A stretch of DNA of 64,000 nucleotides from a virus: positions 62,001 to 126,000 of the IMG/VR virus record IMGVR_UViG_3300027336_000001; one strand, given 5' to 3'. Each line of letters begins with the position of its first letter. Position 1 is the first letter of the stretch. The notes beneath the pieces were generated by a model. That model was not told where the DNA came from. It did no database searches and saw nothing but the letters and a program-made list of their open reading frames with translations. Position numbers and translations under genes: made by a program. Shown piece by piece: positions 10,804 through 58,435 of the stretch.

Positions 10804-10832
10804 AAAACACTAAAGATAAGTTTTTATTGCAA
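10804..10832 (-). promoter_or_regulatory. conserved promoter, copy 1 (TTGCAA-17-TGTTTT)
   Basis: On the minus strand a TTGCAA -35 box (10832-10827) is followed by exactly 17 bases and TGTTTT (10809-10804). The flanks GAAC before the -35 box, TTAT in the spacer and AG before the -10 box match the four other copies at 12615-12643, 51613-51641, 56087-56115 and 58407-58435. It would drive the genes at 10429-10764 and 10175-10423. Confidence 0.75.
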
Positions 10833-10845
10833 GTTCAGAAAAAAA

Positions 10846-11328
10846 TTAATACCAAGCACTAAGACAGATGTTTTCAACAGTAGAGTAATATTCAAACATA
10901 CGGATAAAATCAATTGCTTCATCCATAGTGTATTCATCAAAAAAACCATAATGGTCTACAACAGTTTGTTTACCTGCTTTAATAAATTCTTCCCAATGCT
11001 GTTCAGCATCTTCACTTAGGAACTTATCAAGGTATGTACTCATTTGGCTATAGGCATCTTCAATTTCAGATTTAAAATGAAAGTTATATAACCAGCTATT
11101 TTCTTTTAGCATGGCATCACACATAGATAGGTAATATTTACCTCTAAATGATCCATTGCCATCACTTGTAAATAAACCACCTACAAGACTAATAGGATGT
11201 TTGCCATGATAGTAAACATTTTCAAAATCAACATTTTCAGGTGATTCTTGAGTTTGTGGTGCTTTAGAAAATACTGCAAGATTTTCTTCAGTTTGTTTAG
11301 GAATGAGCCAAAAGTTATCTAAACCCAT
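10846..11328 (-). CDS. unknown 160-residue acidic protein
   Basis: This soluble-looking, aromatic-rich acidic protein begins MGLDNFW, a start I associate with uncharacterised phage proteins but cannot assign. Residues of about 50-75 contain Gly-rich turns (GGLFTSDGNGSFRG), and the second half is predominantly helical. The start at 11328 follows an AAAGGAAAA binding site. It lies in the small-protein operon 15 bases after the gene at 11344-11967. The next downstream gene has its own promoter. Confidence 0.7.
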   Translation of the reverse strand: MGLDNFWLIPKQTEENLAVFSKAPQTQESPENVDFENVYYHGKHPISLVGGLFTSDGNGSFRGKYYLSMCDAMLKENSWLYNFHFKSEIEDAYSQMSTYLDKFLSEDAEQHWEEFIKAGKQTVVDHYGFFDEYTMDEAIDFIRMFEYYSTVENICLSAWY

Positions 11329-11343
11329 AAAAGTTTTCCTTTC

Positions 11344-11967
11344 TTAATTTCTAGTTCTTTCAAATTTTCTAGCTTCAAAAATAAGATATGTAGCCAAGTC
11401 ATAATCTAAAAAGATTTTCTTAACAAGTTCTGCAATCTCTTCTTTAGGTGGCATTAAAATTTCATCTTCACTTTCAGTTTTGATTTCACTTTCTAAAGCA
11501 TCTAAGAAAGCGAACATCTCTTTGCCTGCTTCAGTAAGTGGCTTTGTTAAATCATCATCTTCCACAGAAATACAATAATCTTTTTCAAGTTTCTCAATTA
11601 AAGCATCAAGACTTTGACGATAATCACTTAAAGGAAATGAATTGATAGTGGTTTCATCCAGCATAGTGCCAACAGAATTTAAAGCATCTGTGATTTTCAG
11701 AATACTTTCATTTTGTTTTAGTTTTTCTTCAATGTCTTTTTTTCTAAGTTCAACAAGTGATTTTAAACTTTCATAGTCATTAGTCATTCTTGATCTTAAA
11801 TAAGAGATACCATAAGAGAATGTTAGTTTGCCTGATCCTTCAAAAGTCTTTAAGAAAACTTCAATATCCTTTTCAGTAATAAGGCTAATGCTATCATCAT
11901 TGTGATATGTGATTTCATCAGCAATCGCTTGTAAATCGGTAGTGAATTTAAGGTTGTACTTTTCCAT
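11344..11967 (-). CDS. unknown acidic helical protein
   Basis: This 207-residue protein is rich in Glu, Lys and Leu and looks mostly helical, with a possible coiled coil around residues 65-90. No enzymatic motif, membrane segment or zinc cluster is visible. It starts four bases after the stop of the gene at 11971-12168, so the two are probably translationally coupled. It belongs to the operon driven from the conserved promoter at 12615-12643. Its function is unknown. Confidence 0.7.
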   Translation of the reverse strand: MEKYNLKFTTDLQAIADEITYHNDDSISLITEKDIEVFLKTFEGSGKLTFSYGISYLRSRMTNDYESLKSLVELRKKDIEEKLKQNESILKITDALNSVGTMLDETTINSFPLSDYRQSLDALIEKLEKDYCISVEDDDLTKPLTEAGKEMFAFLDALESEIKTESEDEILMPPKEEIAELVKKIFLDYDLATYLIFEARKFERTRN

Positions 11968-11970
11968 TTT

Positions 11971-12168
11971 TTAATCTTTAAGTTTAAGAGTGAGAGTAAG
12001 ATCACCTGCATCTGTTGTGATTTGGATTTCACCGAAGTGTTTTAAAAGGTGTATTGCATCAAGCATTTCTTCATTATCTTGATTTTTTTCAACAAAAGAA
12101 ACTAATGTTTCTTCGCTGATTAAAATGTCTTTATCGAACATTTGAATAATGGTGTTTTGACTAAGCAT
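11971..12168 (-). CDS. small acidic protein of unknown function
   Basis: This is a 65-residue acidic protein, probably two helices followed by a strand pair ending TLTLKLKD. The start at 12168 has an AAAGGACA binding site. It lies 19 bases downstream of the gene at 12188-12574 and four bases upstream of the gene at 11344-11967. It is small enough to be an inhibitor or adaptor of a host protein, but nothing in the sequence shows this. Confidence 0.65.
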   Translation of the reverse strand: MLSQNTIIQMFDKDILISEETLVSFVEKNQDNEEMLDAIHLLKHFGEIQITTDAGDLTLTLKLKD

Positions 12169-12187
12169 CTTTTGCTATGTCCTTTCT

Positions 12188-12574: not shown

Positions 12575-12614
12575 TTTGCTTTGTCCTTTCTGTGTTATCT
12601 GTTCTGATGTAGAT

Positions 12615-12643
12615 ATAACACTTAGGAATAAGAATAATTGCAA
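12615..12643 (-). promoter_or_regulatory. conserved promoter, copy 2 (TTGCAA-17-TGTTAT)
   Basis: The minus strand reads GAAC-TTGCAA (12643-12638), a 17-base spacer, then TGTTAT (12620-12615). It matches the other four copies, including the AG just before the -10 box. It heads the small-protein operon and is back to back with the promoter of the GMP reductase-like gene. Confidence 0.75.
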
Positions 12644-12687
12644 GTTCACTTAAAAATATTTTTATTTTGTCTTATCTGTTTTCAATG

Positions 12688-12693
12688 TATAAT
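12688..12693 (+). promoter_or_regulatory. TATAAT -10 box of the GMP reductase-like gene
   Basis: TATAAT with a preceding TG (TGTATAAT) lies 29 bases before the ATG at 12722. A loose TTGTCT lies about 15 bases upstream. It is divergent from the conserved promoter at 12615-12643. Confidence 0.5.
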
Positions 12694-12721
12694 TTCTTTG
12701 TTTAAAAAGGAGTATCTACAA

Positions 12722-13705
12722 ATGCTATTAAAGACTTTCAATGACTATCTCATTTCACCTCAATATTCTAGTATCGCATCAAGAGATGAAATTGATTTAA
12801 GTTCATCTCTTGGTAATCAGAAATATGCTTTACCTATTATCTCATCACCAATGACTACTGTCACAGAAACAGAGATGGCAATCGCAATGCAATCTAAAGG
12901 TGGTCTTGGTATCATTCATAGATATAATAGTATTGTTGATCGTACTCATCTTTCTTTTAATGCTAATAAAGCCTGTGTTGCTTTTGGCTGTAATGAACTA
13001 GACAGTATAGACAAGTTTATTAATGCAGGCATCACAACCTTTTGTTTAGATGTTGCACATGGTCATACTAAAATCGTAGGTGATACATTAAAAGAATTGA
13101 AAGCAAGACATAAAGACATTTATGTAATAGCTGGCAATGTAGCTACACAAGATGGATATGAGTTTTTAATAGATCATGGTGCAGATGCAGTTCGTGTAGG
13201 TATAGGTGGTGGTTCTATTTGTACTACTCGTATTCAAACAGGACATGGTATTCCTACATTAGCTAGTGTTTTTGATTGTGCTAAATCTACATATGAAAAA
13301 CCTATTATTGCAGATGGTGGAATTAAGACAACAGGTGATATGGTAAAGTGTTTGGCAGGTGGTGCAGATTTTGTCATGTTAGGTTCATATTTAGCAGGTA
13401 CAGATGAAGCCCCGGGTAGAGTACATACAGATGAACAAGGTAATAAATATAAGAAGTATGTAGGTATGGCAAGTAAAGAAGCACAATCTCAATGGCGAGG
13501 AAATGTAAGATCAGTAGAAGGTGTAAGTCATCAAGTGAATTACAAAGGATCAGTGTTAGATATATTAGATGAGATAGCAATTAATATTAAGAGTGGATTA
13601 AGCTATAGTGGAGCAAGGAATATTAGAGAATTGCAATTAACAGCAAAGTGGGTAGAGATTAGTAATCAAGCATATGCAGAAAGTCAAGCACACATCTTTA
13701 ATTAG
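12722..13705 (+). CDS. guaC: IMP dehydrogenase/GMP reductase family enzyme, GMP reductase-like
   Basis: This 327-residue TIM-barrel enzyme of purine metabolism has the loop GGGSICTTR with catalytic Cys near 167, the phosphate-binding IIADGGIKTTGD, and GSYLAGTDEAPGR. There are no CBS domains. Several features favour GMP reductase (GMP to IMP plus ammonia, with NADPH) over IMP dehydrogenase. It is short, it has the RSVEG segment where GMP reductases carry RASEG, it has YSGA near the end, and the Arg-Tyr pair of the IMP dehydrogenase flap is not seen. The C-terminal AESQAH recalls IMP dehydrogenase, so the direction is not settled. The start follows AAAAAGGAG at ideal spacing. Channelling G nucleotides toward A would suit an AT-rich phage. 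It overlaps the convergent gene by eight bases. Confidence 0.85.
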   Translation: MLLKTFNDYLISPQYSSIASRDEIDLSSSLGNQKYALPIISSPMTTVTETEMAIAMQSKGGLGIIHRYNSIVDRTHLSFNANKACVAFGCNELDSIDKFINAGITTFCLDVAHGHTKIVGDTLKELKARHKDIYVIAGNVATQDGYEFLIDHGADAVRVGIGGGSICTTRIQTGHGIPTLASVFDCAKSTYEKPIIADGGIKTTGDMVKCLAGGADFVMLGSYLAGTDEAPGRVHTDEQGNKYKKYVGMASKEAQSQWRGNVRSVEGVSHQVNYKGSVLDILDEIAINIKSGLSYSGARNIRELQLTAKWVEISNQAYAESQAHIFN

Positions 13706-14117: not shown

Positions 14118-14137
14118 AGGGTATCTTTCTTTAGTTT

Positions 14138-16238: not shown

Positions 16239-16808
16239 ATGAGTAATATCTTTGGTGGTGGCAATAATAAGCATATCTATATTCCACTTACAGAAGTAGA
16301 ACAAGAATTTATTAGCAGGTTAGTAGAATCAAAAGACTTGCAAATAGTGATACATGGCTGGCAAACCATCACAGAAATTAGACCTGTGTTTGGCGATAAG
16401 AATTTGCATTTGCATTTTAATTTTCCATTTTTGAATGTTGAGCCAAAGGAAGTGTATTTCTTTGATATGGAATTACAGACAGGATCAGGTGCATCTTTAT
16501 ATAAAGAAAAGATGCCATGCGAATATGATGGTAAACCATTAAAGGTATGTTCACCAATGGTTTTAGCAATGGTATGGGATATATCAATTAATATGATAGA
16601 TCCAAAGCTAGTGAAAGCATTGATGCCGGGGGTAATAGGATTGACATCAAGACGAATAGATAAAGACAGTGGATTTGCTACAATAGAAGGGAATATGAAA
16701 TTAGATGCGAAACAAAAGTTTCATGCTTATGATTTAATGCAAAGAGAAAAGAAATTAAATATTCAAAGAAAAAAGAAAGTTCAATCTAAAAGTTCTAAAA
16801 CTCGTTGA
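16239..16808 (+). CDS. unknown protein with basic C-terminal tail
   Basis: This is a 189-residue protein. I take the ATG at 16239 (MSNIFGGGNN), directly after the upstream stop, rather than the in-frame ATG at 16149, which lies inside the secreted-protein gene. A beta-rich body is followed by a strongly basic tail ending KKVQSKSSKTR, which suggests contact with nucleic acid or membrane. ALMPGV is encoded with CCG GGG. It overlaps the convergent gene at 16781-17809 by 28 bases. No family is recognised. Confidence 0.7.
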   Translation: MSNIFGGGNNKHIYIPLTEVEQEFISRLVESKDLQIVIHGWQTITEIRPVFGDKNLHLHFNFPFLNVEPKEVYFFDMELQTGSGASLYKEKMPCEYDGKPLKVCSPMVLAMVWDISINMIDPKLVKALMPGVIGLTSRRIDKDSGFATIEGNMKLDAKQKFHAYDLMQREKKLNIQRKKKVQSKSSKTR

Positions 16809-17809
16809 TGGAAAACAGGATTAACAGATGCAAGTCTTAAGGTTTCTCTAAAGACAGCAACTTTGGGATTAGATGTTTCAACTTCTTCATCATCACCAAA
16901 CCATGAATCAAAGAAAGCAACAGTATTAGAAACGATTTTACTAAAGAAAGTAGAGATTTTATTCCAAGACCATTTTAATGCACGAATTAAATCATTAAAA
17001 AGCACAATAGGAATAGCTTTAATTAAAATATCTTGTTTGCGAATGAATTGGGCGGAATCTTTAATATCCAATAATAAAACAGACAAGATGACAATATAGA
17101 GAACTTCTTTAATGCCATGTCCGATACTATGAAGAATATCCATAAAAGAACCACCACCAAAAGCCATAACTACAAAACTAAAAACACTAGCTTCTAAAAG
17201 TGTCATTGCAAGTTCAACAGTAAATAACTTATATACTTCTTTAATTTCAGCAATAGCAGAGTAAAACTTTCTCCAACCACCACCAATAAGACCTGTGACT
17301 TTTTTACCTAAAAGTACAGAAAGGTATCCTTCAAATTCATCCATAGAAATATCAAGTGCTTTAACAATTTCTTCAGGTGATTCTGCTTGAGTAATACGAC
17401 CTAGAAAAGCAATGCTATCTGAAACATCTGCAAAACTTTTAGCTTTTTCACTAATCTTTTTTTCAAGTGGATTTGAAGGTGCAGTAATAATCTTTTCACC
17501 TCTACGAATTTTATTCGCAAGACCTGTTTCTTTGATTAGATCTTTAAAGGTATCTAAAGCACCTGCATCTATATGAGATTGCATTTGGACTTTAACTTTA
17601 TTTACGATTTCACTTAAAACACCTACTTTGACTTCTTTTTGTTCATTTGCAGGAAGTTCTGTTAATGCTTGTAGTTGACCATCAATATTGCCAACATTAG
17701 CTTTTCTTCTCATATTTGGTTTAGCTGTTAATGCTCTTAAACAAGCCTTTTGTAAAGCACTACTGCCTTTGGTTTGTTTTGCAATACGATAGATTTCATT
17801 GATTACCAT
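16781..17809 (-). CDS. membrane-associated protein at the end of the tail module
   Basis: This 342-residue protein has an N-terminal basic helical part (RIAKQTKGSSALQKACLRAL) and a soluble middle. Two strong hydrophobic segments lie near residues 195-215 and 232-250, followed by a shorter one near 265. It is the last gene of the tail block, 65 bases after the spike gene. That position and the membrane segments would suit a virion protein entering the host membrane during DNA injection. Its order of segments (hydrophobic helix, GGGSFMDIL, hydrophobic helix) loosely recalls the three tandem paralogues at 46755-49374. I do not know its function. Confidence 0.7.
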   Translation of the reverse strand: MVINEIYRIAKQTKGSSALQKACLRALTAKPNMRRKANVGNIDGQLQALTELPANEQKEVKVGVLSEIVNKVKVQMQSHIDAGALDTFKDLIKETGLANKIRRGEKIITAPSNPLEKKISEKAKSFADVSDSIAFLGRITQAESPEEIVKALDISMDEFEGYLSVLLGKKVTGLIGGGWRKFYSAIAEIKEVYKLFTVELAMTLLEASVFSFVVMAFGGGSFMDILHSIGHGIKEVLYIVILSVLLLDIKDSAQFIRKQDILIKAIPIVLFNDLIRALKWSWNKISTFFSKIVSNTVAFFDSWFGDDEEVETSNPKVAVFRETLRLASVNPVFHQRVLELLD

Positions 17810-17874
17810 TTGTTATGTCCTTTAAAAAAGAATTGGTTTTTGTTAATCACAAAGATATAAATAAATTATTAAGA

Positions 17875-20097
17875 TCAACCAATAGCTAAAACATGACCTC
17901 TTGGAATTAAACCTAATGCTACATATGGCAAGCCTGTGACAGTATCTCTATCTGATCCACACATAATAAAACCAACACTTGTACCTTTACTAGATAAAAC
18001 TAAAGCACCACCACCACGAATGGTAGTAACAACTTCACTATTAACTACTGCACTAGCAACACCATTGAGAGTAGCAATACCACTTAAAGCATTCACAGTA
18101 GCTACACCTGCAGTAGCATTTATTATTGCACTTGCAGGTGTAAGATTAATAGCATTTGCTCCAACAGTCATATTTAAAGCACCTGCACCAATGACAGTAT
18201 TTTTAGTACCTGATGTAATGAGATCGGTAATATTGCTAGTAGTCAAATAAGTATTAAGTTCATCACCAAAAGCAACAACCTTTTCATCTACAATACCTGC
18301 GACTTGACCTGTTGCAGGTGATGCCAAAATCTTTGTAGATCGTGGCGGTCCACTTAACATATTAAAGTCTTTGGGTCCACTAATGGTAGTACTTGAACCA
18401 CCCATAATGGTTTCATTTTTACCTTTAGCTGAAATATTGATTGATTCAGCACTACCAAAATTTAAAGCACTTTGAGATTTAAGTACAACTTGACCTGCAT
18501 CAGCTAAATTTACAACAGGAGCAGATAAGTTTATTCTTTCATTAGAGCTAAGATTGATCGTATTGACTGCATTAATATTAATAACTTTATTGGATTTTAA
18601 ATCTACATTGTTGCCAGCATTAAGAGAAACCTGTCCACCTAAGTTCATATCCAAATTACCTGTAGTTTGAACATTTACTTTTTGAGCAGATAGACCAACA
18701 CCACTATTGACTTTAGCCTTAATGCCATATTCAGTAGTAGCATTACCTATAAATGCTCTTAAAGCACCACCTTTGGTAAAAGAAATAAAAGATGCAGGAT
18801 CACCACCAACAACAGGTTGTACTTTTAATAAAGTAGCAGAATGTTCTTGTAAATCTAAAGTAGAAGCATCTACAAGAGAAGAACCTGCACCAAATTCAAT
18901 TTTAGGTGATAAAGGTTTACCATATAAATCTTTACCTGTTAAAGTAAATGCTTCATTACCGACTACAGAACCTAAAACAAATTCAACAAAAGGTAATTTA
19001 TCTTTGCTTTCTTTAACATCAGGCAGTCTATCAGAATCAAAACCATCTGTCTGTTCAGATACAGGTAAAGTGCCATCAGTTAAGTGATTAAGTTCGATAC
19101 GATATTCAGTAGCCATGTTAGTATTAAAAGATGCTTTGCCTTCTGTATTTAATCTAAGAATAGCTTTGCCACCATAAACAAGACTTCTAGTTTCACTTTC
19201 ATTTTCAAAAAACTCATTAACAAGGTTAGCATTGTAAACGAATTTATATGGATCAACAGTGATGAAACCATCATCTTTCTCAAAGTTGTTTTTTTCATTA
19301 AGACTTTCTTTTCTAAAAAGATGGTGTGGTTTATAGTTATCCTGTGAAACAGTATCATTTTTAAAATTTCTTTTAGGTTTGCCATCTACATCTAATTGAT
19401 ATGGATCAGACCAATCACTACCATCAGAGATAAGTTCTTTAGGTAAAGTTCTAGCATCTCTTTGAACAATGCCACCATAAATTCTAGCACCACTCATTGT
19501 ATGGAATTGTTGTTGGGATCTTACAACAAATGCTTGATCTTGATCTCTCAATCTAATTTCATTTGCTCGCCTATTAGATAATAAAACACTTTCATCTAAA
19601 ACAAGATCAGAGCCTTGAGATGAAGATGCACCAATATTGCCAGCTTGAAAGTGTCTTAATTTATTTCTAATACGATGACTAATACCTTTAAGTTCAATTC
19701 TATCTTTAGGTGTATTGAGCATACCTTCTTCAGTAGTAGTAGATTGAGTAGGCAACCAATCATGTCCTAGAAAAGGTGATTTGGGAAACCAACCTAAAAT
19801 AGCAGGTTTTCTTTTCCCATCTTGATCAGCAGACATCCAGCCTACAATACAAAGATCATTAATATCAGGAATAGCACCTAAGAAATGTCTAGCACCAAAA
19901 GCAGGCAGGATAATTTCAACACCTGAATAAATAGGTTCATCTTTTTCACCTTGCACAACTTTAATATCACATCTAAGTTCTTCAGCATAAACTTTAATAA
20001 TGCTTGCGAGAGAGATAGAAAGTTTAGACCATCCTTGAGAAGATGATTTAGGAGCAAGTTCATTTCTTAAATTATTAGTGAGAGTAGTATTACTCAT
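17875..20097 (-). CDS. baseplate central spike protein (gp5/VgrG-like)
   Basis: This is a 740-residue protein. Residues of about 45-110 (IYSGVEIILPAFG, GWMSADQDGKRKPAILGWFP) look like the OB-fold domain of phage spike proteins. From about 445 to 600 the chain repeats short alternating polar and hydrophobic units (NLDMNLGGQVSLNAGNNVDL and similar), as in the triple beta-helix needle of T4 gp5 and VgrG. The last 130 residues continue Gly-, Ala- and Thr-rich. No lysozyme domain is seen here. The neighbouring hub carries a peptidase-like domain instead. The start ATGA overlaps the stop of the hub gene. It would pierce the host outer membrane at the tip of the tail tube. Confidence 0.85.
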   Translation of the reverse strand: MSNTTLTNNLRNELAPKSSSQGWSKLSISLASIIKVYAEELRCDIKVVQGEKDEPIYSGVEIILPAFGARHFLGAIPDINDLCIVGWMSADQDGKRKPAILGWFPKSPFLGHDWLPTQSTTTEEGMLNTPKDRIELKGISHRIRNKLRHFQAGNIGASSSQGSDLVLDESVLLSNRRANEIRLRDQDQAFVVRSQQQFHTMSGARIYGGIVQRDARTLPKELISDGSDWSDPYQLDVDGKPKRNFKNDTVSQDNYKPHHLFRKESLNEKNNFEKDDGFITVDPYKFVYNANLVNEFFENESETRSLVYGGKAILRLNTEGKASFNTNMATEYRIELNHLTDGTLPVSEQTDGFDSDRLPDVKESKDKLPFVEFVLGSVVGNEAFTLTGKDLYGKPLSPKIEFGAGSSLVDASTLDLQEHSATLLKVQPVVGGDPASFISFTKGGALRAFIGNATTEYGIKAKVNSGVGLSAQKVNVQTTGNLDMNLGGQVSLNAGNNVDLKSNKVININAVNTINLSSNERINLSAPVVNLADAGQVVLKSQSALNFGSAESINISAKGKNETIMGGSSTTISGPKDFNMLSGPPRSTKILASPATGQVAGIVDEKVVAFGDELNTYLTTSNITDLITSGTKNTVIGAGALNMTVGANAINLTPASAIINATAGVATVNALSGIATLNGVASAVVNSEVVTTIRGGGALVLSSKGTSVGFIMCGSDRDTVTGLPYVALGLIPRGHVLAIG

Positions 20098-23000
20098 TTG
20101 CCACCACCTATTAATTTGCTTTGGTTAGATTGCCAAACTTCAGCTTTAGAGAAGTTATCGTTAGCCATTTTCTTAACAAGTTGTTCTTGACCAACATTGA
20201 CATAGTTATATGCACCATCAAGACTTATACCTAAAAGCTGTAAATCTCTATCATAAGATCTACAATCACAGACATTACCTTTTTGATCAAAGTTTGGAGT
20301 AATATCTTGAAGTTTCTTTGGCACGGATTCAATAATAAGACCTTGATCAACAGAAGTTTGATTTACAGGCTGGTTAGCAAGACCACTATCAATAATATTT
20401 GTAGACATTTCTTTATTTAAATTCGCATCTGAATTGACTGCATTTTTAATTGTATTGCTACCTTCTTGAATAGTGACATTAGCAAGTTCACTGCCTGCAA
20501 CATCTTCTTTAGTGTCCTCTAAATTTACAGAAGATGTTTTATCTTTCTTTAATAGTTTTTCAAAAGATCCATTTTTTCTTAAAGTCAATCCTCTGCCATA
20601 AGGATAACTACCAAATACTTCATAACCATATTCATCAGATACAGGGAAAACAGGCATAACAGTAGGATCATTATTATAAGCACCTGCACCACTAGCAAGA
20701 CTATTACTTGGAGTGAGATTAAAACCACCTGTAAGACTTAAAAGGATTTTTAAATCTTTTTGAAGTTTATCAATATTTTCACCTTGAGTATTAAAGACAT
20801 TTTGGACAGCTTGTGGATTTTCTTTAGCTTTTTTAAGATCAGTAAGTACAGAATGTTTTTTTTCTAGTTTAGCCATAAGGTTAGTAACAATGTTATTAAG
20901 TTTAATTTTATAGACACTGTCATTAGGATTAGCTTTTGGAGTTTGAGCAGGTGGAATAAAATCTTCAGGAAGGAAACGATAAAGATACCAAATAATATCT
21001 TTTTTTCGTTTAGTTTTAACAACACCTGTACCTTCTTTACCATCTGGATGTAGTCCAAACGAATTACCATCTACACAGATAATATAATCTTGATGGATTT
21101 CAGCACAAAGAGCAATATGTTTACCATGTTCAGCAGATTTATTAGTGGGTGCACCTGTTTCACTATCAATACCATTAAAGATAACAATATCACCTACTTT
21201 GATTTCTGCATTTTTATTTTTATAGTAATCGATAAATCTAGGAGTATTTCCCCATTTACTAAAAATGCCACCACATCCACCTAAAAATCCACCATCATAA
21301 ACACTAGGTTTAATTGCACCACTTTCTTTAATGCAATATTGAGCAAAAAGACCACACCATGCGACTTGACAATCATAACGATAATCTCGTCCTGTATATA
21401 TATCTAAATATGTTTTACTTGGTGTTGCACACCATCTTTGATTAGCAGGATCAAGACGAGCATTTGCAACACCTATTTTATCAGGTGATACAGGTGCATC
21501 ATAAATATCTCTTGACCATTCTCTAATCGCAACACCTAGAATCCTTTGGATACCTTCACCATTAATTTCTATATAATCACCTACAAGAGATTTGCCATCA
21601 CCATCACATAAAGAACCATTTGCATATGCTTGGAAAATATCCTCATTTATATCATCTATTTTATCTTTATCAAATAAAACTTCGCAAATATTCTTATTGA
21701 TTTGTGGATCATTAGCACCAATCTTCTTTTCTCTTAATAAAGGTCTACCATTACTAAATAATTGATCACGGATAATTTTGGCAATTTGAGAATAAGAAAT
21801 ACCTGTCATTTTTCCCATAGGTGTGCCTTGAGTTTGCTCTGTAATAACAGTAGTAGGTATCTCTAAATCTATCTTTTGAAAAGCAAGACCTTTGATTTCA
21901 CTTGTAGGTACAATTTCCTGTGGTTGTCCAATGTTCTTAAAGATACGAATACCTGTCTTAACAAAATTAGGATCATCTACAAATTCAATAAGATTACCAT
22001 CAGTATTAGCATTAGTAGGATCAGGCATTACAACATTTACATTTTTAAGATTGGGATTAGCCTCTATTCTAGGTGGTTGCTTAAAATCTACTTTGCCTTT
22101 CTTTACTGATATTTCAATTGCACCTTGCATTTGAACATCAGGATGAGAGCAACTATAATATCTATAATGTCCAGCGACAGCACCACCAAAGGTAGATTTT
22201 CTTGTAGCTAAATTTGCAAGGATATTTGCTTTACTGCCTTGACCAAAAGCTGTTGTATTTGATGATCTATATGATTTAACAAGATCTACCAATTGACTTA
22301 AAGTGACTTTCTTATCTGCAATAGATTGTTGTTGTCCAATATCTACAGATGTAGTAGGTATTTCATCAGGTAGAGATTGGTTTTGTACATTAAGTTCATT
22401 ACTAGCAATTTGATCTTGGCTCAAATCATTACCTTTAATAGAATTATCTTTAGGTTGGACTGCATTAGTAGAGTTATTAGGTGATATACTAGCTTGTGTT
22501 CCTAATTGACTTGTAGCATCTTTAACATCAAGAATACCTATGATTTCACCTTCACCATCTGTACTAGCAGGATTTCTAACAAAGAAGGGTCCATTAAATA
22601 GAGGATTACCTTTATTTAAATCACTAGATGCTTGAGGTGCAATTTGTAAAATACCTGCATTATGTGCTTCAAGGATAAGCATATTAAGATGTTCAGGTGT
22701 AGAGATTTCAATATTATCTTGACCTGATGGTAAAGAAGTAGGATTGATTTTAGTTTGGTCAATAGCCATAACTACATTAGGAAAACCACAGACACGAACA
22801 TTGCCTTCCGTGTCTAAAGAATTGAGATATTTATTAGGCTGAGAGATATTAGCTAGATCGACAGCTTTACTACTGTCTTGTGCATAAGAAGTGTTAGAAC
22901 TGCCGGGCAGGATAAATTTCTTTCTTCTGCAAACAAGAGTTAAAGAAGTAGTGCAATCACCACCAAAAGAAAAAGAATGACTAACAGCTTCTACATAATA

Positions 23001-24551: not shown

Positions 24552-24552
24552 G

Positions 24553-25620
24553 TTATTGTCCTTGTTGGGATGAAGTAAACAAAGCATTGACTTGAGTTTG
24601 TTGGCTTTGCTCTGTAGGAAGTAAAACACCTGATCCAACAGGTTTAGTAGTTTGGTTATCCTCAATAATATCGTTTTGAGTAAGTTCTATTTTATCAGCA
24701 TCAAGATTTGTTTTAGGTGTGGCAGTATTTTGTGCTTTAGTAGGCTCAAAATAAGTCATTTCATGAACTTTCATTTTAAAGTTAAAATCCATACCACCAA
24801 GCATTTGTGCTTCATCATAACCATAGTCAAAGGATTCAAGACTGCCTTTATATCTAGTACCATCATATTCAATAACAAAGCGACCAACTTCATGTATCAT
24901 TTCAGATCTACCAACACGATCACGGATGGTAGCACCATTACGATACATGGCAAGGATAGCAAGTATTTGTCTAAAGCTGGCACTATCTCTCATAGATGCG
25001 AATTGCAAACCTGTGGCAGTTTTACTTGGATCACCATAGGCAATAAAAGCACCTGATTTGCATTGAATATCGAGATCAGGTAAATCTTCACCCCATGCTT
25101 GAAAAACATAACCAAATCTAGTTCGTTCGGAATATTGTTGGACTTTAGTAAAGGTTAAGCCTAGTGATTGTGGATTAGAAAGAAAGACGAGTGGTGGCAA
25201 ATCTCTTAATTGTTTAAATTGATCTACAATATCTAAAGCCATTAAACGATCTGAAAGACCAGCTTGAGAAGTATTATTTTCAGTAACTTGACTATTAAAA
25301 GAGTAAATAGGATTTTTAGCATTAGAAGAAATAGATGCACCATTAAGACTATTAACATTAGTAGCTAGATATGCTCTATTTCTTAAAGGTGATGCAAAAG
25401 GTGGGATTTTAGTAGAAGAGATTTCACTTTGTTTTCTTATTGTTTTAGGAAAGATAATAGCAGGTGGTTCGATATACATAACAAAAGGTGAATAAGAACG
25501 AGCAACAGGATCAGCAGTATCTACAGGATAACCACCATTAGATACTTCATTGCTATACATTTGAAAGAGTTCACCTGTTGCCAATTGGGAAAATTGACTA
25601 ATATCAAGAGTAGGTTTCAT
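24553..25620 (-). CDS. baseplate/tail protein, paralogue of the gene at 25624
   Basis: This 355-residue protein shares a core with its upstream neighbour. LTFTKVQQYSERTRFGYVFQ here aligns with FSYTKKITRTQTFGGFIETHWG there, followed in both by an acidic strand and GAFI/GGFI. In both, the core continues with a run containing an aspartate-rich helix and MYRNGA or FHNNGA. This copy has an added N-terminal 120 residues and a low-complexity tail rich in Thr, Gln and Asn. The position between tape measure and hub suggests a tube-end or baseplate component. The start follows a GGGAGG binding site. Confidence 0.75.
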   Translation of the reverse strand: MKPTLDISQFSQLATGELFQMYSNEVSNGGYPVDTADPVARSYSPFVMYIEPPAIIFPKTIRKQSEISSTKIPPFASPLRNRAYLATNVNSLNGASISSNAKNPIYSFNSQVTENNTSQAGLSDRLMALDIVDQFKQLRDLPPLVFLSNPQSLGLTFTKVQQYSERTRFGYVFQAWGEDLPDLDIQCKSGAFIAYGDPSKTATGLQFASMRDSASFRQILAILAMYRNGATIRDRVGRSEMIHEVGRFVIEYDGTRYKGSLESFDYGYDEAQMLGGMDFNFKMKVHEMTYFEPTKAQNTATPKTNLDADKIELTQNDIIEDNQTTKPVGSGVLLPTEQSQQTQVNALFTSSQQGQ

Positions 25621-25623
25621 ATT

Positions 25624-26220: not shown

Positions 26221-26242
26221 TTAAACATATCCTTTCTTTCTA

Positions 26243-30013: not shown

Positions 30014-30022
30014 GTTCTTTAC

Positions 30023-31081: not shown

Positions 31082-31083
31082 TT

Positions 31084-31689: not shown

Positions 31690-31739
31690 ATTTATATTCT
31701 CCCTTTATAGATCGTCATCTATATCATACAATAAAATTA

Positions 31740-39140: not shown

Positions 39141-39209
39141 TATTAAATCTATATTTACAAGCATAATTATAAAAGAGCATATTTTCACTTAAAACAAAGG
39201 ATAAGCAAA

Positions 39210-46754: not shown

Positions 46755-47627
46755 CTATTCTAATTTTAAAACTTCACTTTCAATTAGATTACCTTTTTCA
46801 TCTATTAAATGCCTGCGATACAGATAATAAAATTGAGCACCCATAGCAGGTATTATTAAAGCATTCCATCCTATCTTCAAAGAGGATGCAATCATTCCAC
46901 TTGGGATAAAAGGACAAAATACTTGAATAAGTAAACCTAAACCTGTTTCAGGTAAAGTACGAATAAGATCACCCCATGACATTAAACCTAAAAATCCTTT
47001 AGTGATATCTGTAACCTTCCAACTTATTTCTGTTACATTTGTCCAAACTAACCAAAATACATATGCTTTAGCAGGCATAGACATGACATCAAAAACAGGA
47101 TGATGATCAAAAAAATCTTCAATAATTTCTGCAAAGGTATTAAAACCACCATTGTATTTTTTAAATGCCTGCATGATAATTTGCTTTTCTTCACTATCTA
47201 CTCTTTCAAGTAAATAGTTTATTGAACTTGTTACTGTTGGTGCTTTATCTGCATATAAGAACATAAAGTACAAATACTTATTTTTTTCCGATAGCTGTTG
47301 TTTATGCTTATTGACCCATTCTTTACCTTGTTCAAGATATCCTGCTAATTTATCATTAAGCTGGTGATATAGAGAAACATTATCTATAGCATTAATACCT
47401 AAAGTCTTTTTAAAAAGATTCCACATCTGTGGTTGCTCTTGGTACTTTTCATAAATATCTTTGAGTTTACTTGTTAGTCCAAAAAGAGAACCATGTTTAA
47501 CAATTTGGTTAGCAAAAGGTATTAAGGTAGTCGCATTAAGTTCTTTTCTAACTTGATATGCACTAGCTGTCCTTATCTTTTTACTTTCTTTTATTGCTTG
47601 TATGCAGGCAAGTTTTATATATTTCAT
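46755..47627 (-). CDS. membrane-associated protein, tandem paralogue C
   Basis: This 290-residue protein is about half identical by eye to the next gene upstream. Both begin with a basic amphipathic segment (KLACIQAIKESKKIRTASAY here), followed by NATTLIPFANQIV. Hydrophobic stretches occur near 110-120, 190-205 and 235-275. Both end QFYYLY, then a short Asp- and Glu-rich tail. It starts with an ATGA overlap on the previous gene. The family is not known to me. Membrane segments and a basic lead segment would fit a virion protein that enters the host membrane. Confidence 0.75.
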   Translation of the reverse strand: MKYIKLACIQAIKESKKIRTASAYQVRKELNATTLIPFANQIVKHGSLFGLTSKLKDIYEKYQEQPQMWNLFKKTLGINAIDNVSLYHQLNDKLAGYLEQGKEWVNKHKQQLSEKNKYLYFMFLYADKAPTVTSSINYLLERVDSEEKQIIMQAFKKYNGGFNTFAEIIEDFFDHHPVFDVMSMPAKAYVFWLVWTNVTEISWKVTDITKGFLGLMSWGDLIRTLPETGLGLLIQVFCPFIPSGMIASSLKIGWNALIIPAMGAQFYYLYRRHLIDEKGNLIESEVLKLE

Positions 47628-48499
47628 GTTAGTTTCTCTACTTCACTTTCAATCAGTTTACCATGTTCATCTATTAAGTGTTGTTGATACAGATAATAAA
47701 ATTGTATACCCATAGCAGGGATGATCAGTGCATTCCAACCTATCTTTAAAGAAGATGCAACCATGCCACTTGGGATGAAAGGCATAAAGATTTGGATAAG
47801 AAAACCTAAACCACTTTCAGGTAGTGATTCTAAAAGATCACCCCATGAGATTTGACCTAGAAAACCTTTAATAATATCTGTGATTTTCCAACTGACTTCA
47901 GCTACATTGACCCAAATGATCCAAAATAAATATGCTTTAGCAGGAATACTGATTGTATGTAGAACAGGATGTTTTTTAAAGAACTCATCTATTGTGTCTT
48001 TTAGGTTTCCAAATCCATCTGATAATTGTTTAAGTTTTTTAGACAGCTTAGATGAATTATCAGGATTGATCTTTTCAAGTAGTGTTTTTATAGAACCTGT
48101 TATTGTAGGTGCATTCTCTGCATATAAGAACATAAAATAAATTAGCTTGTTTTCTTTTGCTAGTTTCTGTTTATGTCCATCAATCCATTTTTTACCTTCT
48201 TCAAGATATTCAGATAACTTTTCATTAAGTTGCTTATATAGAGAAACAACATTAGTCGCAGTGATACCTAATTTTTCTTTAAACTTTTCCCAAAGGTTTG
48301 GCATCTTTTGAAAACCTTCATAGATTTGTTTAATTTTACCAACAAGACCTTTAATAGAACCATACTTAACAATTTGATTGCCAAAAGGTATTAAAGTAGT
48401 CGCATTAAGTTCTTGTCTTAAATGTGATGCAGTTTTATATTTAATGCTTTTATGTACTGCTATTTGACAGGCAAGTTTTATTAAAATTTCTCTTTTCAT
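47624..48499 (-). CDS. membrane-associated protein, tandem paralogue B
   Basis: This is a 291-residue protein. Shared segments with paralogue C include NATTLIPFGNQIVKYGS, WGDLLESLPESGLGFLIQI and PSGMVASSLKIGWNALIIPA. The first 20 residues (MKREILIKLACQIAVHKSIK) are basic and amphipathic. Several hydrophobic helices lie in the last third. The gene lies two bases after paralogue A and overlaps paralogue C by four bases, so all three form one operon. Its function is unknown. Confidence 0.75.
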   Translation of the reverse strand: MKREILIKLACQIAVHKSIKYKTASHLRQELNATTLIPFGNQIVKYGSIKGLVGKIKQIYEGFQKMPNLWEKFKEKLGITATNVVSLYKQLNEKLSEYLEEGKKWIDGHKQKLAKENKLIYFMFLYAENAPTITGSIKTLLEKINPDNSSKLSKKLKQLSDGFGNLKDTIDEFFKKHPVLHTISIPAKAYLFWIIWVNVAEVSWKITDIIKGFLGQISWGDLLESLPESGLGFLIQIFMPFIPSGMVASSLKIGWNALIIPAMGIQFYYLYQQHLIDEHGKLIESEVEKLT

Positions 48500-48501
48500 T
48501 C

Positions 48502-49374
48502 CTAATGTCCTTTCAATATTCTTAGTTCTTCATCTAAATATCCTTCTTGATAAAGGAAATAAATCTGAAAAGGTAAAGTCTTATATTTCACAATATCTTC
48601 AATATCTATGAAATCCTCTAAAAGAGCAGATATGAAATCACTTAACTTATCCATAGGTAAATCATCTAGTATCTGATCACTATCTAATTTGCCTGTTAGT
48701 CCTGATACTAGATTTTTCTTTGCAAAGGTATCATCATCTATTTTTCTTGAAATACCTAAATAGACTAAAAACACAGCTATGTTTACTGCTTTGTTATCTG
48801 TCTTTTTAATTTTTTCTTTTAATAAATCCCAAATCTTTCCTAACCAATCCTTAACAGATGTAGCCATATTTTTAAGTTTATCTATACCTTGTTGGATTTT
48901 AGCAGGTAGTTTAGCATATAAGTTCTCTAACCATTGTTTCGCTTGTGTATATTCTAATTTAGACACTTTATACATGATGTTTAAGAAAGGTATATCTTTA
49001 ATAACACTTTCTAACCACTTGCCAAAATTGGATTTAAAATTAGGCAAGTCCATTAGCATAGAACCAATATTTTTAGGATCGAGATTTAAGGTTTTTTTAA
49101 TTTCTTCCCATTTGTTTGGTTTCTTTTGTATTTCTTCATAGATATGGATTAAAGAATTTTTAGTGTTTTCATATAAAGAAGTAATGTCTTTAATAAAAGC
49201 AGTCTTATAGAAAAGATGATTGCCTAAAACTTCTAAAACTTCAGGTGTGATTTCAGAACGAACATATCCAGCACTAGCTGTTTTATATTTTTTACTTTCA
49301 CGAATAGCATCAATAGATGCTAAACGAATGATATGTCTTTTGACTACATTATTTATTAAAACTTGTCTACTCAT
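48502..49374 (-). CDS. membrane-associated protein, tandem paralogue A (divergent)
   Basis: This 290-residue protein is more diverged than B and C but has the same layout. The lead segment IRLASIDAIRESKKYKTASA matches KLACIQAIKESKKIRTASA of C. SGLTGKLDSDQILDDLPMD aligns with KGFLGQISWGDLLESLPES of B. The end PFQIYFLYQEGYLDEELRI matches QFYYLYQQHLIDEHGKL. The middle is helical and lysine-rich. It is the first gene of the trio, and its ribosome binding site lies in the hairpin at 49377-49413, so the hairpin may set output for the whole set. Confidence 0.75.
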   Translation of the reverse strand: MSRQVLINNVVKRHIIRLASIDAIRESKKYKTASAGYVRSEITPEVLEVLGNHLFYKTAFIKDITSLYENTKNSLIHIYEEIQKKPNKWEEIKKTLNLDPKNIGSMLMDLPNFKSNFGKWLESVIKDIPFLNIMYKVSKLEYTQAKQWLENLYAKLPAKIQQGIDKLKNMATSVKDWLGKIWDLLKEKIKKTDNKAVNIAVFLVYLGISRKIDDDTFAKKNLVSGLTGKLDSDQILDDLPMDKLSDFISALLEDFIDIEDIVKYKTLPFQIYFLYQEGYLDEELRILKGH

Positions 49375-50753: not shown

Positions 50754-51299
50754 TTAAAGACAGGTTTCTATTACTTTCTTAATTTCAGAATGATCAATAT
50801 TTTTAGATTTCTTTAAAAACTCTACTGCTTTAAGTCTTGCATTTTTATGATTACTTGCATAGGTTTCAGATGCTTTATCATCACATCTATTGCCACTAAA
50901 GTAATGACAGATGGTTTTATCTAGTTTGCCATCCCATCTTTCTTTTATGTATTTCAATTGATCTAATGCCTCTTTGGTTGCTCTAGTAGGATGTAAAAGA
51001 TCAACACAATCAAATTTATTCATGCTTAATTTATCTGTCTGTTGAAACACACCACAAGCCTCACCATAGTAGTTTGGTGTGATATGATCTGTATCAAAAG
51101 AAAATCTAGTTTCATTCCATGCAAGTGCAATTAAATGTTGCACAGATTGCTCTTGAGTAAAGTATGTGTTCTCTACACTATAGGAATAGATAACATTTGA
51201 GAGTTGGTTTAGTTTACAGATTTCATCTGTATCTAAGACAGGTGTTTCGGTGTTTAACATAGATAAGAGAGTAAAGAGAATATCGATTGACTTGATCAT
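50754..51299 (-). CDS. lytic transglycosylase/lysozyme-like protein (SLT fold)
   Basis: This is a 181-residue protein. LIALAWNETRF places the probable catalytic Glu at residue 63, and YYGEACGVFQQ corresponds to the GLMQ segment of soluble lytic transglycosylases. CHYFSGNRCDD further on fits the end of the domain. A short hydrophobic N-terminus (IDILFTLLSML) could be a signal-arrest or signal segment. It would cleave peptidoglycan glycan strands at lysis or during entry. It is encoded apart from the tail genes, which favours an endolysin role. No holin gene is obvious nearby. The start follows AAGGACA. Confidence 0.78.
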   Translation of the reverse strand: MIKSIDILFTLLSMLNTETPVLDTDEICKLNQLSNVIYSYSVENTYFTQEQSVQHLIALAWNETRFSFDTDHITPNYYGEACGVFQQTDKLSMNKFDCVDLLHPTRATKEALDQLKYIKERWDGKLDKTICHYFSGNRCDDKASETYASNHKNARLKAVEFLKKSKNIDHSEIKKVIETCL

Positions 51300-51612: not shown

Positions 51613-51641
51613 ATAACACTTTGCATAAGATATTATTGCAA
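51613..51641 (-). promoter_or_regulatory. conserved promoter, copy 3 (TTGCAA-17-TGTTAT)
   Basis: The minus strand reads GAAC-TTGCAA (51641-51636), 17 bases, then TGTTAT (51618-51613) followed by ATAAG. It is nearly identical to copy 2 at 12615-12643. Confidence 0.75.
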
Positions 51642-51647
51642 GTTCAT

Positions 51648-55608: not shown

Positions 55609-55609
55609 A

Positions 55610-56040: not shown

Positions 56041-56086
56041 TTAAACACCTGCTTTCTTTTTTTTCTTATAATCTTTTTTATCTGAC

Positions 56087-56115
56087 TTGCAATAAATCTT
56101 AATCTTAAGTGTTTA
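56087..56115 (+). promoter_or_regulatory. conserved promoter, copy 4 (TTGCAA-17-TGTTTA)
   Basis: GAC-TTGCAA (56087-56092), a 17-base spacer ending AAG, then TGTTTA (56110-56115). It matches the other four copies. Predicted transcription begins about 42 bases before the ATG at 56164. Confidence 0.72.
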
Positions 56116-56163
56116 AGTAGTATCAATAAGACAAAACCACTTTTCAAAAAAAGGAAAATGAAA

Positions 56164-56556
56164 ATGGCAAGAAGATCAAAAGGTATTACTGTTCTCAAGG
56201 AAAAGACATACATCAAAGAAAGATTGACCATGAAAGGTTTAAACTTCTCAATCAAAAAGAATGAAGTAATTCTTCATGATTTTGTAGCAATGGGATTTGA
56301 AAGTATCACCATTAGGACAACAGAAGATGGTAAATATGTCACAGGTCTAGTAGTCAATCACAAAAATTTATTATCCTTCACAGAAAATGATAATAATTAT
56401 CCTCTTTTCACAGATGGTAAATTTGTGACAAGTGATATAGATTTCATCCTATCTTACTTATCATGGGAATGTAGAAACAATCCTAGCGATAAAGTACCTG
56501 ATGGATTACAAATAAAAAGACTAACAAAAATGAGTGTCAATCAAGTAGATTGTTAA
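56164..56556 (+). CDS. unknown 130-residue basic-start protein under a conserved promoter
   Basis: This protein has a basic N-terminus (MARRSKGITVLKEKTYIKER) followed by a compact beta-rich domain and an acidic end. I prefer the ATG at 56164, nine bases after AAGGA, over the ATG at 56158. The family is unknown. It lies directly upstream of the DNA ligase gene, probably in one transcript. The basic arm could contact DNA or RNA. Confidence 0.7.
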   Translation: MARRSKGITVLKEKTYIKERLTMKGLNFSIKKNEVILHDFVAMGFESITIRTTEDGKYVTGLVVNHKNLLSFTENDNNYPLFTDGKFVTSDIDFILSYLSWECRNNPSDKVPDGLQIKRLTKMSVNQVDC

Positions 56557-56577
56557 AAAACGAAAGGACGAATGAAA

Positions 56578-58404
56578 ATGTTATCTATCACAGAACTTGA
56601 AAATCTAGTTAAGAAACACAATTCTCTTTATTGGGATTTGAATGCACCTGAAATCTCTGATGTAGAGTATGATGCACTTGTAGAGCAATTAAGAGCAGTT
56701 GCACCTACATCACCTGTCTTAAGCAGTTTAGGCACATTCGCAGAAATTGGTATGGAAGTACAACATTCTAAACCTATGTTGTCATTAGACAAGTGTTATA
56801 ATGAAGATGACTTAAAGAAATGGTCTAGGTCTTTTTCATCTTATGTATGCACACCTAAAATTGATGGTATGGCTTGCAGTATCAAATATGAAAATGGCAT
56901 TTTGGTACAAGGTGCAACAAGAGGTGATGGCAATATAGGTGAAGATATTACACAAAACATTATCAACATCGTACCAAAGCAAATTAGCATAACAACACCT
57001 GTAGAAATTCGTGGTGAATTATATATGCCTATTTCTGTATTTAATACTCAAAAGGATATCTTTGCAAATCCTAGAAATGCAGTAGCAGGTATTATTAAGA
57101 GAAAAGATGGCAATGTACAAGGCATCAAGTTTCTTGCATACGATTTCATAGGCAGTGAGTTTAATCTATTTTCTGATAAAATAGATGCACTTAAAGCATT
57201 AGGTTTTGAAATCCCATTTTATACTGTCTTTAATGGTATTGATCATCTACAAGCAGGTTATGATCATATCCTAAACATTAAAGATAGTTTGGACTATGAA
57301 CTAGATGGTGTTGTTTATCGTGTAAATGATAATCAAGCATATGAAAATGCAGGATATACATCACATCACCCTAAAGGAGCAATAGCATATAAATTTCAAG
57401 GTGAGTTTGGTACAACTAAACTTTTAAATGTTGAATGGCAAATTAGCAGATCAGGTATCTTAACACCTGTAGCAATCGTCCAACCTGTGAAATTAAGTGG
57501 TGCAATGGTAGGCAGGATTACTTTGCATCATGCAGGTATGATTAAGACAAAAGGTTTAACTCTTAATGCAGATGTTTTGGCAATAAGAAGAGGTGGTGTT
57601 ATTCCACACCTTGAAAAAGTCATTAATGCAGGTGATACATCTATTGAAATTCCTGTATGTTGTCCATTCTGTTCATCAGCAACAGAACAAAAAGAAGATT
57701 TTCTATATTGCACAGCGAATTGTAGTTTATCTACAAAGGTAAGTTACTTTATGGAAAAAGTAGGTATTGAAGGCATAGGCAATGTATGGATTGAAAAGTT
57801 AATAGAAGAAGGTCTTGTCAATAACTTTGCTGATCTATATAGACTTAAAAGAGAAGATTTATTAAAGATTGAAAGTGTTGGTGAAACTAGAGCAGATAAT
57901 TGGTTATCTAGCATTACCAAAAGCACTAGATTATCTTTAGATAAGTTTTTAATATCTCTTGGCATTCACAGTTTAGGTAAAAAAGCAAGTGATGTTTTAA
58001 CAAGTCAATTTAAAACCTTAGATGCAGTTTTAGCATTAAAGACATCTGATATTGAAAAACTAGATGGTTTTGGCAGTATCACAGCACAGGATATTGTTAA
58101 TGGTCTTAAAGCAAATGTAAATGTTATTACTGATCTTTTGCAATATATCCAAATTGACAATGGCAGTGAAAAGACAGGTATCTTTAAAAACAAATCATTT
58201 CTTTTCACAGGTACATTGACTACCTTAAAGAGAAATGATGCAGAAGCAAAGGTATTAGAGTTAGGTGGCAATGTAGCATCATCAGTAAGCAAGAATTTAA
58301 GTTATCTTGTAGCAGGTGAAAAAGCTGGCAGTAAACTAGATAAAGCAAATGCACTTGGCATTAAGGTTATCACAGAACAAGAATTTTTAAATATGTGTAA
58401 ATGA
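56578..58404 (+). CDS. ligA: NAD-dependent DNA ligase
   Basis: This 608-residue enzyme seals nicks using NAD. A short Ia-like NMN-binding start (LNAPEISDVEYDALV) is followed by the nucleotidyltransferase motif PKIDGM, with the adenylated Lys near residue 94. TRGDGNIGEDITQN, ELDGVVYRVND and GAIAYKF follow. Then come the OB fold (LTPVAIVQPVKL), the Cys4 zinc finger (CCPFC, then CTANC, near 361-383), helix-hairpin-helix repeats and a C-terminal BRCT domain near 530-608. It is complete, though somewhat shorter than the 670 residues usual in bacteria. Phages more often encode ATP-dependent ligases. The start at 56578 has better spacing to AAAGGA than 56572. Confidence 0.95.
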   Translation: MLSITELENLVKKHNSLYWDLNAPEISDVEYDALVEQLRAVAPTSPVLSSLGTFAEIGMEVQHSKPMLSLDKCYNEDDLKKWSRSFSSYVCTPKIDGMACSIKYENGILVQGATRGDGNIGEDITQNIINIVPKQISITTPVEIRGELYMPISVFNTQKDIFANPRNAVAGIIKRKDGNVQGIKFLAYDFIGSEFNLFSDKIDALKALGFEIPFYTVFNGIDHLQAGYDHILNIKDSLDYELDGVVYRVNDNQAYENAGYTSHHPKGAIAYKFQGEFGTTKLLNVEWQISRSGILTPVAIVQPVKLSGAMVGRITLHHAGMIKTKGLTLNADVLAIRRGGVIPHLEKVINAGDTSIEIPVCCPFCSSATEQKEDFLYCTANCSLSTKVSYFMEKVGIEGIGNVWIEKLIEEGLVNNFADLYRLKREDLLKIESVGETRADNWLSSITKSTRLSLDKFLISLGIHSLGKKASDVLTSQFKTLDAVLALKTSDIEKLDGFGSITAQDIVNGLKANVNVITDLLQYIQIDNGSEKTGIFKNKSFLFTGTLTTLKRNDAEAKVLELGGNVASSVSKNLSYLVAGEKAGSKLDKANALGIKVITEQEFLNMCK

Positions 58405-58406
58405 AC

Positions 58407-58435
58407 TTGCAATAAAAATTTATCTTTAGTGTTTA
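58407..58435 (+). promoter_or_regulatory. conserved promoter, copy 5 (TTGCAA-17-TGTTTA), upstream of sspB
   Basis: GAAC-TTGCAA (58407-58412), 17 bases ending TTTAG, then TGTTTA (58430-58435), starting two bases after the ligase stop. The first 18 bases of this element are almost the same as in copy 1. Confidence 0.75.

Follow-up and report, generated by a model that had tools for sequence, protein, structure and literature searches.

Which role has a short sequence that recurs, nearly unchanged, ahead of scattered genes of a jumbo phage, and which protein reads it? This question is raised by a 64-kb stretch of viral DNA (positions 62001-126000 of the 195,689-bp viral record G000, IMG/VR record IMGVR_UViG_3300027336_000001), which is called the window in the following. 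A first-pass annotation had noticed five near-identical elements in the window, had read their TTGCAA and TGTTWW boxes as a promoter, and had united the scattered genes behind them in one regulon. All five elements are indeed found at the described places and on the described strands, each with TTGCAA, exactly 17 bases and TGTT, with (A/G)AC ahead of the first box, TTA in the spacer, and AG directly before TGTT. What is present is an element of at least 35 bp that recurs in a fixed orientation, lies between genes in almost all cases, and stands just upstream of ribosome-binding-site-like words. The explanation that we favour, with moderate confidence and on the basis of sequence comparisons, is that the element represents a phage-specific promoter class for about 30 scattered transcription units, which would be used by the host RNA polymerase together with a phage specificity factor.

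The aligned five window copies (Table 1) have in common (T)GAAC or TGAC, followed by TTGCAAT, the 17-base gap between TTGCAA and TGTT, AGTGTT, and AT-rich bases thereafter. A matrix made of the five sites scores them at 40.2-46.0 bits, whereas the sixth-best position in the 64 kb reaches 10.4. When each site was left out in turn, the omitted sites scored 26.9-39.7 versus at most 12.5 for any non-site, and the top score in ten simulated 64-kb sequences (third-order Markov) was 17.7. An unprimed search for pairs of 5-mers in the non-coding DNA of the window (pairs with at least three G/C) likewise ranks the element first. Three of the five copies begin no more than 8 nucleotides (nt) behind the stop codon of the preceding gene or overlap with that stop. 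The distances to the start codons are as had been proposed, with 34-62 nt from AGTGTT in the window.

When the whole record was scanned, the pattern TTGCAATN6TN7AGTGTTWW gave 15 exact matches and its reversed control none, and the more permissive pattern TTGCAAN{12,20}AGTGTT gave 26 matches, again with none in the reversed control. The hits lie almost exclusively upstream of genes: 25 of the 26 are the element (21 with spacer 17, four with spacer 18), and the sole match inside a gene (spacer 19, window 17183-17211) has a matrix score of 6.4. Allowing up to three mismatches in the 17-spacer pattern resulted in 55 matches versus 11 in the control, and most of the extra matches are not the element. 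Three further IMG/VR records, 3300027375_000003 (G001), 3300027287_000002 (G002) and 3300008261_002596 (G003), contain the same copies wherever they overlap G000, and on the basis of these shared sites and of a ligase that is 100% identical in G001 and G002, we treat the three records as the same phage as G000. G002 extends about 30 kb past G000 and contributes five more sites (four with spacer 17, one with spacer 18), not counting a variant with ATGTGTT at 19773 that was left out. The five sites first noticed are thus real but an undercount, as this phage has at least 30 (25 with spacer 17 and five with spacer 18).

In G000, an open reading frame (ORF) with a Shine-Dalgarno-like word follows 26-62 nt after AGTGTT at 24 of the 25 sites, and no clear ORF is seen downstream of the site at 161263. 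Such ORFs also follow all five extra sites of G002 as well as 44 of 45 and 14 of 14 sites in the two relatives G005 and G004 that are described below, at 15-62 nt overall; in these counts, the ORF starts were chosen mechanically and many ORFs are cut by the end of the stretch. The genes had been described as mostly small and acidic, plus sspB, and to this extent the description holds, with 17 of 24 products behind G000 sites being net negative (two of the 24 are incomplete) and with an SspB-like gene in the set. It was too narrow in that a unit with DNA ligase and the genes of an ATPase-like protein, an acidic CobT-like protein and a helix-turn-helix (HTH) protein also belong to the regulon. 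The ATPase-like protein, presumably CobS-like, matches phrog_249 ‘porphyrin biosynthesis’ (E = 5.9e-10) and, under the cut-off, PF00004 (E = 0.0014), and the acidic protein, presumably CobT-like, matches phrog_1576 ‘unknown function’ (E = 1.1e-11). Other products are a protein of 278 amino acids (aa) that appears VWA-like by eye and has no library match, and a SWIM zinc finger protein (PF04434, E = 1.3e-6). Overall, the idea of one regulon of scattered genes with a conservation that reaches well beyond the two boxes is supported.

The element recurs in a second form in two related phages, namely G004 (L078), a fragment of 72 kb whose ligase is 91% identical over the last 302 residues, and G005 (L102, 316 kb), whose sigma factor is 88% identical to that of the window's phage. 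Searched with the 17-spacer pattern and up to three mismatches, G004 had nine matches versus four in the control and G005 had 48 versus 22, and none of these was judged to be the element. It was recognised at the ligase-SspB junction of G004, where its spacer is longer by one base. With the free gap of TTGCAAN{12,20}AGTGTT, there are 14 matches in G004 and 46 in G005 versus none in the control, and although gaps from 12 to 20 were permitted, the spacer is 18 in all fetched sites (14 of 14 and 45 of 45; the last G005 match has a gap of 20 and was left out). If the A of AGTGTT is taken as q0, the conservation in G005 spans about 60 bp, beginning with an A-tract and ending with a small dyad that resembles a hairpin: the upstream part is A-rich from q-40 to q-37 and T-rich from q-33 to q-31, with G before TTGCAA in 40 of 45 sites and AG after it; the spacer has GC at q-11/-10 (44 of 45) and A at q-1 (45); and downstream there are AT at q6-7 (44), TATGTC near q11-16, a purine at q17 in 45 of 45 sites, then ATAA and YGAC. 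G004 also has the spacer GC (14 of 14) and the q17 purine (13 of 14), with a weaker downstream dyad, and the leaders of G000 are A/C-rich from about q16 onward.

The dyad of G005, GTCR-ATAA-YGAC, is relevant for the question whether the element is an operator, such as a repressor binding site, or an RNA-level element of the 5' leader rather than the promoter itself. The dyad lies just past the presumed start, and its inner pair covaries, with pairing in 40 of 45 sites, which a fraction of 0.0036 of shuffles reaches; this test is lenient, as the copies are related by descent. However, the dyad is missing from the logo of the window's phage, the orientation of the element and its place ahead of gene starts are constant, and no other constant signal was seen between element and ribosome-binding site. 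An operator or leader function in place of a promoter therefore appears very improbable. A translational leader element had also been considered and was dropped because the element lies far from the start codon.

How far does the element extend beyond these phages? In a scan of a viral collection, one pattern matched only records of this phage (10 stretches), and another (23 stretches) added single matches in five other contigs, while a third, too permissive to be specific, matched at least 120 stretches. The 18-spacer form gave 42 stretches; clusters were confined to G004 and G005, and the remaining matches stood singly, in three records of this phage and in 14 other contigs. The same pattern with a spacing that is off by one marks the chance level with 49 stretches of one match each. 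A more distant 485-kb phage, LR745208.1, shares homologues of an 826-aa protein, the helicase and the sigma factor, and has no such element but one weak look-alike in the 100 kb examined (55-56% GC).

By blastp, 19 genes of the window's phage, some of them paralogues, could be linked to element-led genes in G004 or G005. Fifteen of them have spacer 17 here and 18 in the relatives, and four have spacer 18 in both. The 18 form is probably ancestral, with one base lost at most sites of the window's phage, because the G000 site at 143761 is a G004-like form with GC and because G004 and G005 have spacer 18 throughout. Some sites were probably copied from one another, since spacers at different genes are too similar for chance: five pairs of near-identical spacers (at most one mismatch in the 13 free bases) occur in this phage, compared to a mean of 0.35 and a maximum of 3 in 300 column shuffles, and 15 pairs occur in G005, compared to a mean of 3.9 and a maximum of 10. 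Copies 3 and 5 of the window are examples, as their 13 free spacer bases are identical to those of the sites at record positions 39168 and 183048, respectively. T4-type mobile promoter cassettes are promoters with a stem-loop that are copied between intergenic sites, and in analogy, the concerted shift could be due to copying and homogenisation by recombination rather than to a changed reader. Most spacers within a phage differ, though, and pairs with matching spacers are only partly alike in their flanks; moreover, copying alone leaves it unexplained why 15 genes moved in the same direction. We regard cassettes as a rather unlikely explanation of the shift, but one that is compatible with a phage-specific promoter class.

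Could the sigma-70 polymerase of the host alone read the element? It would then be a strong host-type promoter like the early promoters of T4, with an UP-like A-tract, a poor -35 box and an extended -10 box (TGTTATA), and the long conservation would reflect optimisation. G005 comes closest to this, as its A-tract is followed by a T-tract (q-40 to q-31), TGTTATA is a passable extended -10 (mean 4.2 of 6) with a TATA-like hexamer that has A at -11 in 44 of 45 sites behind a TGT that was fixed by the search pattern, and the purine start would follow 6-7 nt after the hexamer. T4 early promoters resemble the element in the UP-like A-tract and are likewise conserved past their core boxes (PMC2988021). 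Unlike T4 early promoters, the element has no good sigma-70 -35/-10 match in the window's phage. With the G005 register, four of 21 sites here show A at -11, and TTGCAA would stand 20-21 bp from the -10 (21 bp in G005). The mean match of the best register is 3.05 of 6, and there is no register in which A at -11 and T at -7 are both present in most sites. The first-pass assignment of TTGCAA and TGTTWW as a sigma-70 box pair could thus not be maintained, as no register fits in this phage and a sigma-70 scan called none of the five window copies in the assigned one. The one same-strand call that overlaps with copy 3 (9 of 12, TTTAGA-17-AATAAT at 51660-51632) is in a different register, and the calls in two window stretches are not above those in shuffles (37 vs 46; 22 vs 23.5). 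In addition, if the reader were as conserved as sigma-70, it would not be explained why the spacing moved by one base in most of the regulon. Recognition by the host polymerase alone is for these reasons not what we expect, and its probability is low. Other readings considered were an ECF-type (extracytoplasmic function) promoter with GAACTT as -35, dropped as GAAC is absent from the logos of the relatives, and a sigma-54 promoter with TTGCA as -12, dropped as a GG upstream is missing.

The data support the idea that the element is read by more than plain RNA polymerase, and the next question is which polymerase and which factor are involved. PF00562 detected no RNA polymerase in G000-G003 (a search without a phage positive control), and PF04998 and phrog_3148 detected no phiKZ-type RNA polymerase in G000, G002, G004 and G005, records that may be incomplete; as a positive control, phiKZ was found by phrog_3148 and weakly by PF04998 (E = 7e-4). 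In the favoured explanation, it would be the host RNA polymerase core that transcribes from the element under a phage-supplied specificity factor, which would contact TTGCAA and AAGTGTT, and transcription may start at the purine 12 nt after AGTGTT (q17). Factor and promoter set would have changed together.

One candidate for such a factor is a phage sigma encoded at record 28019-28774, for which TTGCAA would be the -35 and AAGTGTT the -10 box. The two boxes have a sigma-like spacing, and the gene product matches phrog_1740 (E = 1.4e-6) and weakly region 2 (PF04542, 15.1 bits with a cut-off of 24). Sigma homologues are as a rule present in jumbo phages that lack an RNA polymerase (PMC7598289), and in the phages phiEco32 and 7-11 a phage sigma similarly serves a phage-specific motif before a class of genes, although the phiEco32 consensus TAATGTATA differs from the element (PMC4331800). 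However, residues 95-245 of the sigma differ at four places between G000 and G005, while the promoters differ in spacing and flanks. The phage sigma looks too conserved to explain the spacing shift and is a poor fit for a changed promoter, because its DNA-binding half is nearly unchanged. If transcription starts at q17, the -10 would furthermore end 11 nt upstream, which is long. We see a small chance that this sigma is the reader. A second sigma match at record 18265 was set aside, as by eye it resembles a homing-endonuclease-type ORF. In G005, near 76.4 kb (76449; L341:1228-2434), a sigma-region-4-like ORF of 187 aa stands beside a NusG/KOW-like ORF of 212 aa and a clamp-loader-like ORF; the latter two labels were given by eye, and these may be more phage transcription factors.

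As a candidate reader, an HTH protein encoded within the regulon (Table 1), or another DNA-binding protein that changes between the phages, is preferable to the phage sigma. The HTH protein matches PF13384 (E = 1.3e-6) and phrog_323 ‘transcriptional regulator, D5-like’ (E = 4.6e-6). Its sequences in G000 and G005 have 52% identity, with changes that fall into predicted third helices. An AlphaFold2 model computed from two sequences has five three-helix units with a predicted template modelling score of 0.26; the predicted local distance difference test is 70-90 for 158 of 283 residues and lower in the first unit (57-70 by blocks), which makes the local helices credible but not their arrangement. 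A structure search with the model found no PDB match at E ≤ 0.001. At the sequence level, three of ten unit pairs scored above almost every shuffle (0-2 of 500 were better), and the other seven did not. The most specific scenario would be a promoter of about 60 bp for 30-45 units that is read box by box by this five-HTH-unit protein made in the same regulon, in a phage that apparently has no multisubunit RNA polymerase of its own, and with a reader-promoter pair that was re-tuned by one bp at most sites in the lineage of the window's phage. We consider this full scenario decidedly unlikely, also because the protein matches HNH-endonuclease families better than the regulator family (phrog_8446, E = 1.1e-11; phrog_7545, E = 6.2e-9).

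This match is one of several points that weigh against a phage-specific promoter class with a re-tuned reader. The 52% identity of the HTH protein is not special, as the median is 68% over 67 ORFs (overlapping ones included), and the protein was not found in the 72-kb fragment that represents G004. The polymerase search was confined to the multisubunit models PF00562, PF04998 and phrog_3148, and the records may be incomplete. The purine at q17 is present in only 13 of 21 G000 sites with spacer 17, which does not favour a start there, and as the phage keeps five sites with spacer 18, its reader may tolerate both forms. Copying between sites could have spread one form without any change of the reader, as near-identical spacers stand before unrelated genes. 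The search pattern required TTGCAA and AGTGTT in the relatives, so that the invariance of these boxes there is by construction and only the other positions were free, and in G005 plain host recognition is possible.

The genes served by the element are probably early or middle genes, because the tail-like gene block of the window is without the element: no copy is present in the block 16781-32513, which has weak tail-protein matches. At least one further promoter class in the window is likely, since TATAA(G/A) occurs in 12 of 22 element-free upstream regions (of at least 28 nt), whereas shuffles give 5.7 and the opposite strand gives 5. Such a motif would suit a T4-like late sigma, which is another point against the phage sigma as reader of the element, and it could be a late promoter of the phage sigma factor. 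Two stretches of the window have 3 and 0 terminator-like matches, respectively, which is not more than in shuffles.

Table 1. The five window copies of the element with the genes behind them, and the HTH protein gene. Positions refer to the window unless marked as record positions.
Feature	Position	Strand	Remarks
Element copy 1, spacer 17	10804..10838	-	matrix score 46.0 bits; between genes 10429-10764 and 10846-11328
Gene behind copy 1, 111 aa	10429..10764	-	net charge -4; followed by 10175-10423
Element copy 2, spacer 17	12615..12649	-	matrix score 42.0
Gene behind copy 2, 128 aa	12188..12574	-	charge -14; followed on the same strand by 11971-12168, 11344-11967 and 10846-11328
Element copy 3, spacer 17	51613..51647	-	41.5 bits
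Gene behind copy 3, 89 aa	51311..51580	-	charge -14; followed by 50754-51299
Element copy 4, spacer 17	56081..56115	+	score 40.2
Gene behind copy 4, 132 aa	56158..56556	+	net charge +4; unknown product
NAD-dependent DNA ligase	56572..58404	+	PF01653, E = 2.6e-56
Element copy 5, spacer 17	58401..58435	+	44.9 bits; overlaps the ligase stop codon
SspB-like gene behind copy 5, 142 aa	58496..58924	+	PF04386, SspB structures
HTH protein, 283 aa	record 189005-189856		between the 278-aa gene and the SWIM gene, inside the regulon; same order in G000 and G005

The products behind copies 1 and 2 are homologous (30.9% identity over 123 aa, E = 3.3e-9 by blastp), and the former has no Pfam match. The ligase gene begins 15 nt after the gene behind copy 4, and this gap suggests that both genes probably form one transcription unit. 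At copy 5, the TGA stop codon of the ligase gene is part of TGAAC. The SspB-like product matches PF04386 with 23.8 bits (E = 4.9e-5), which is below the curated cut-off of 27, and chains of SspB structures with E = 2e-4; its homologues stand behind the element in both relatives as well.

In the neighbourhood of these features, an IMP dehydrogenase/GMP reductase-like gene (window 12722-13705, +; PF00478, E = 4.7e-93 when scanned from an earlier TTG at 12638) is oriented divergently from copy 2, and no close relative of it was found in bacterial genomes. Three adjoining genes for 290, 291 and 290 aa (window 46755-49374, -) may represent a tandem triplication, with which similar weak matrix matches at 47525 and 48394 agree. 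An inverted repeat with 10-bp arms, CCTTTGTTAA-GT-TTAACAAAGG, lies between two divergent genes at window 4968-5068. Elsewhere in the record, there is a gene for a 261-aa class III nucleotide cyclase-like protein (record 183890-184675, -; L075:3890-4675; PF00211, E = 0.016, below cut-off) that is 89.5% identical in G005, and near 18 kb, a LAGLIDADG-type homing endonuclease-like ORF was recognised by eye (L342:17-1656), directly behind a possible piece of a capsid gene.

How does the element compare with known systems? The early promoters of phiKZ-like jumbo phages, which are used by a virion RNA polymerase, are similar in that a strongly conserved motif is repeated before scattered operons; in AR9, 34 such promoters were predicted and 41 starts were found, and in phiKZ and AR9 the motifs were first found by computation and then confirmed as early promoters wherever transcript profiles were recorded (PMC5312081, PMC7598289). 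These promoters, however, are AT-rich blocks of about 10 nt near -10 (AR9: AAATATATATTAT-6N-G), whereas the element has two GC-bearing boxes at a distance of 17-18 bp, and the searches for a phiKZ polymerase homologue were negative. An AT-rich stretch does follow AGTGTT and may be compared with the phiKZ-like block centred at -10, with the start position here being a predicted one. In T4 middle promoters, a MotA box (TGCTTtA), bound by the early phage activator MotA, stands 12 ± 1 bp before a sigma-70 -10 (PMC2988021). They are similar in that a phage-specific box replaces the -35 and that G005 has a TGn/TATA-like extended -10, and differ in that the box of the element has another sequence and stands further from the -10 (AsiA and MotA were not searched for). 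The intergenic regions of halovirus HF2 likewise contain long repeats (58 bp) that function as promoters and keep their position among relatives, but HF2 is a haloarchaeal virus with seven class I copies and another transcription machinery (PMC8707807). Other aquatic jumbo phages without RNA polymerase have been described (PMC12619734). A literature search, which left subscription journals mostly outside, found no publication on the element itself.

Taken together, this is a real, compact and lineage-specific promoter-like element of a little-known group of jumbo phages, for which we infer the promoter function, the timing and the reader. At homologous genes, the spacing has changed by one base in most of the regulon, and this offers a natural experiment in how the specificity of a transcription system can change without collapse. 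Since the two forms of the element, the genes behind it and a candidate reader are at hand from two related phages, exchanging promoters and readers can test which protein reads the element. For a group of phages with few annotated functions, the element furthermore provides a search key for dispersed putative takeover genes.

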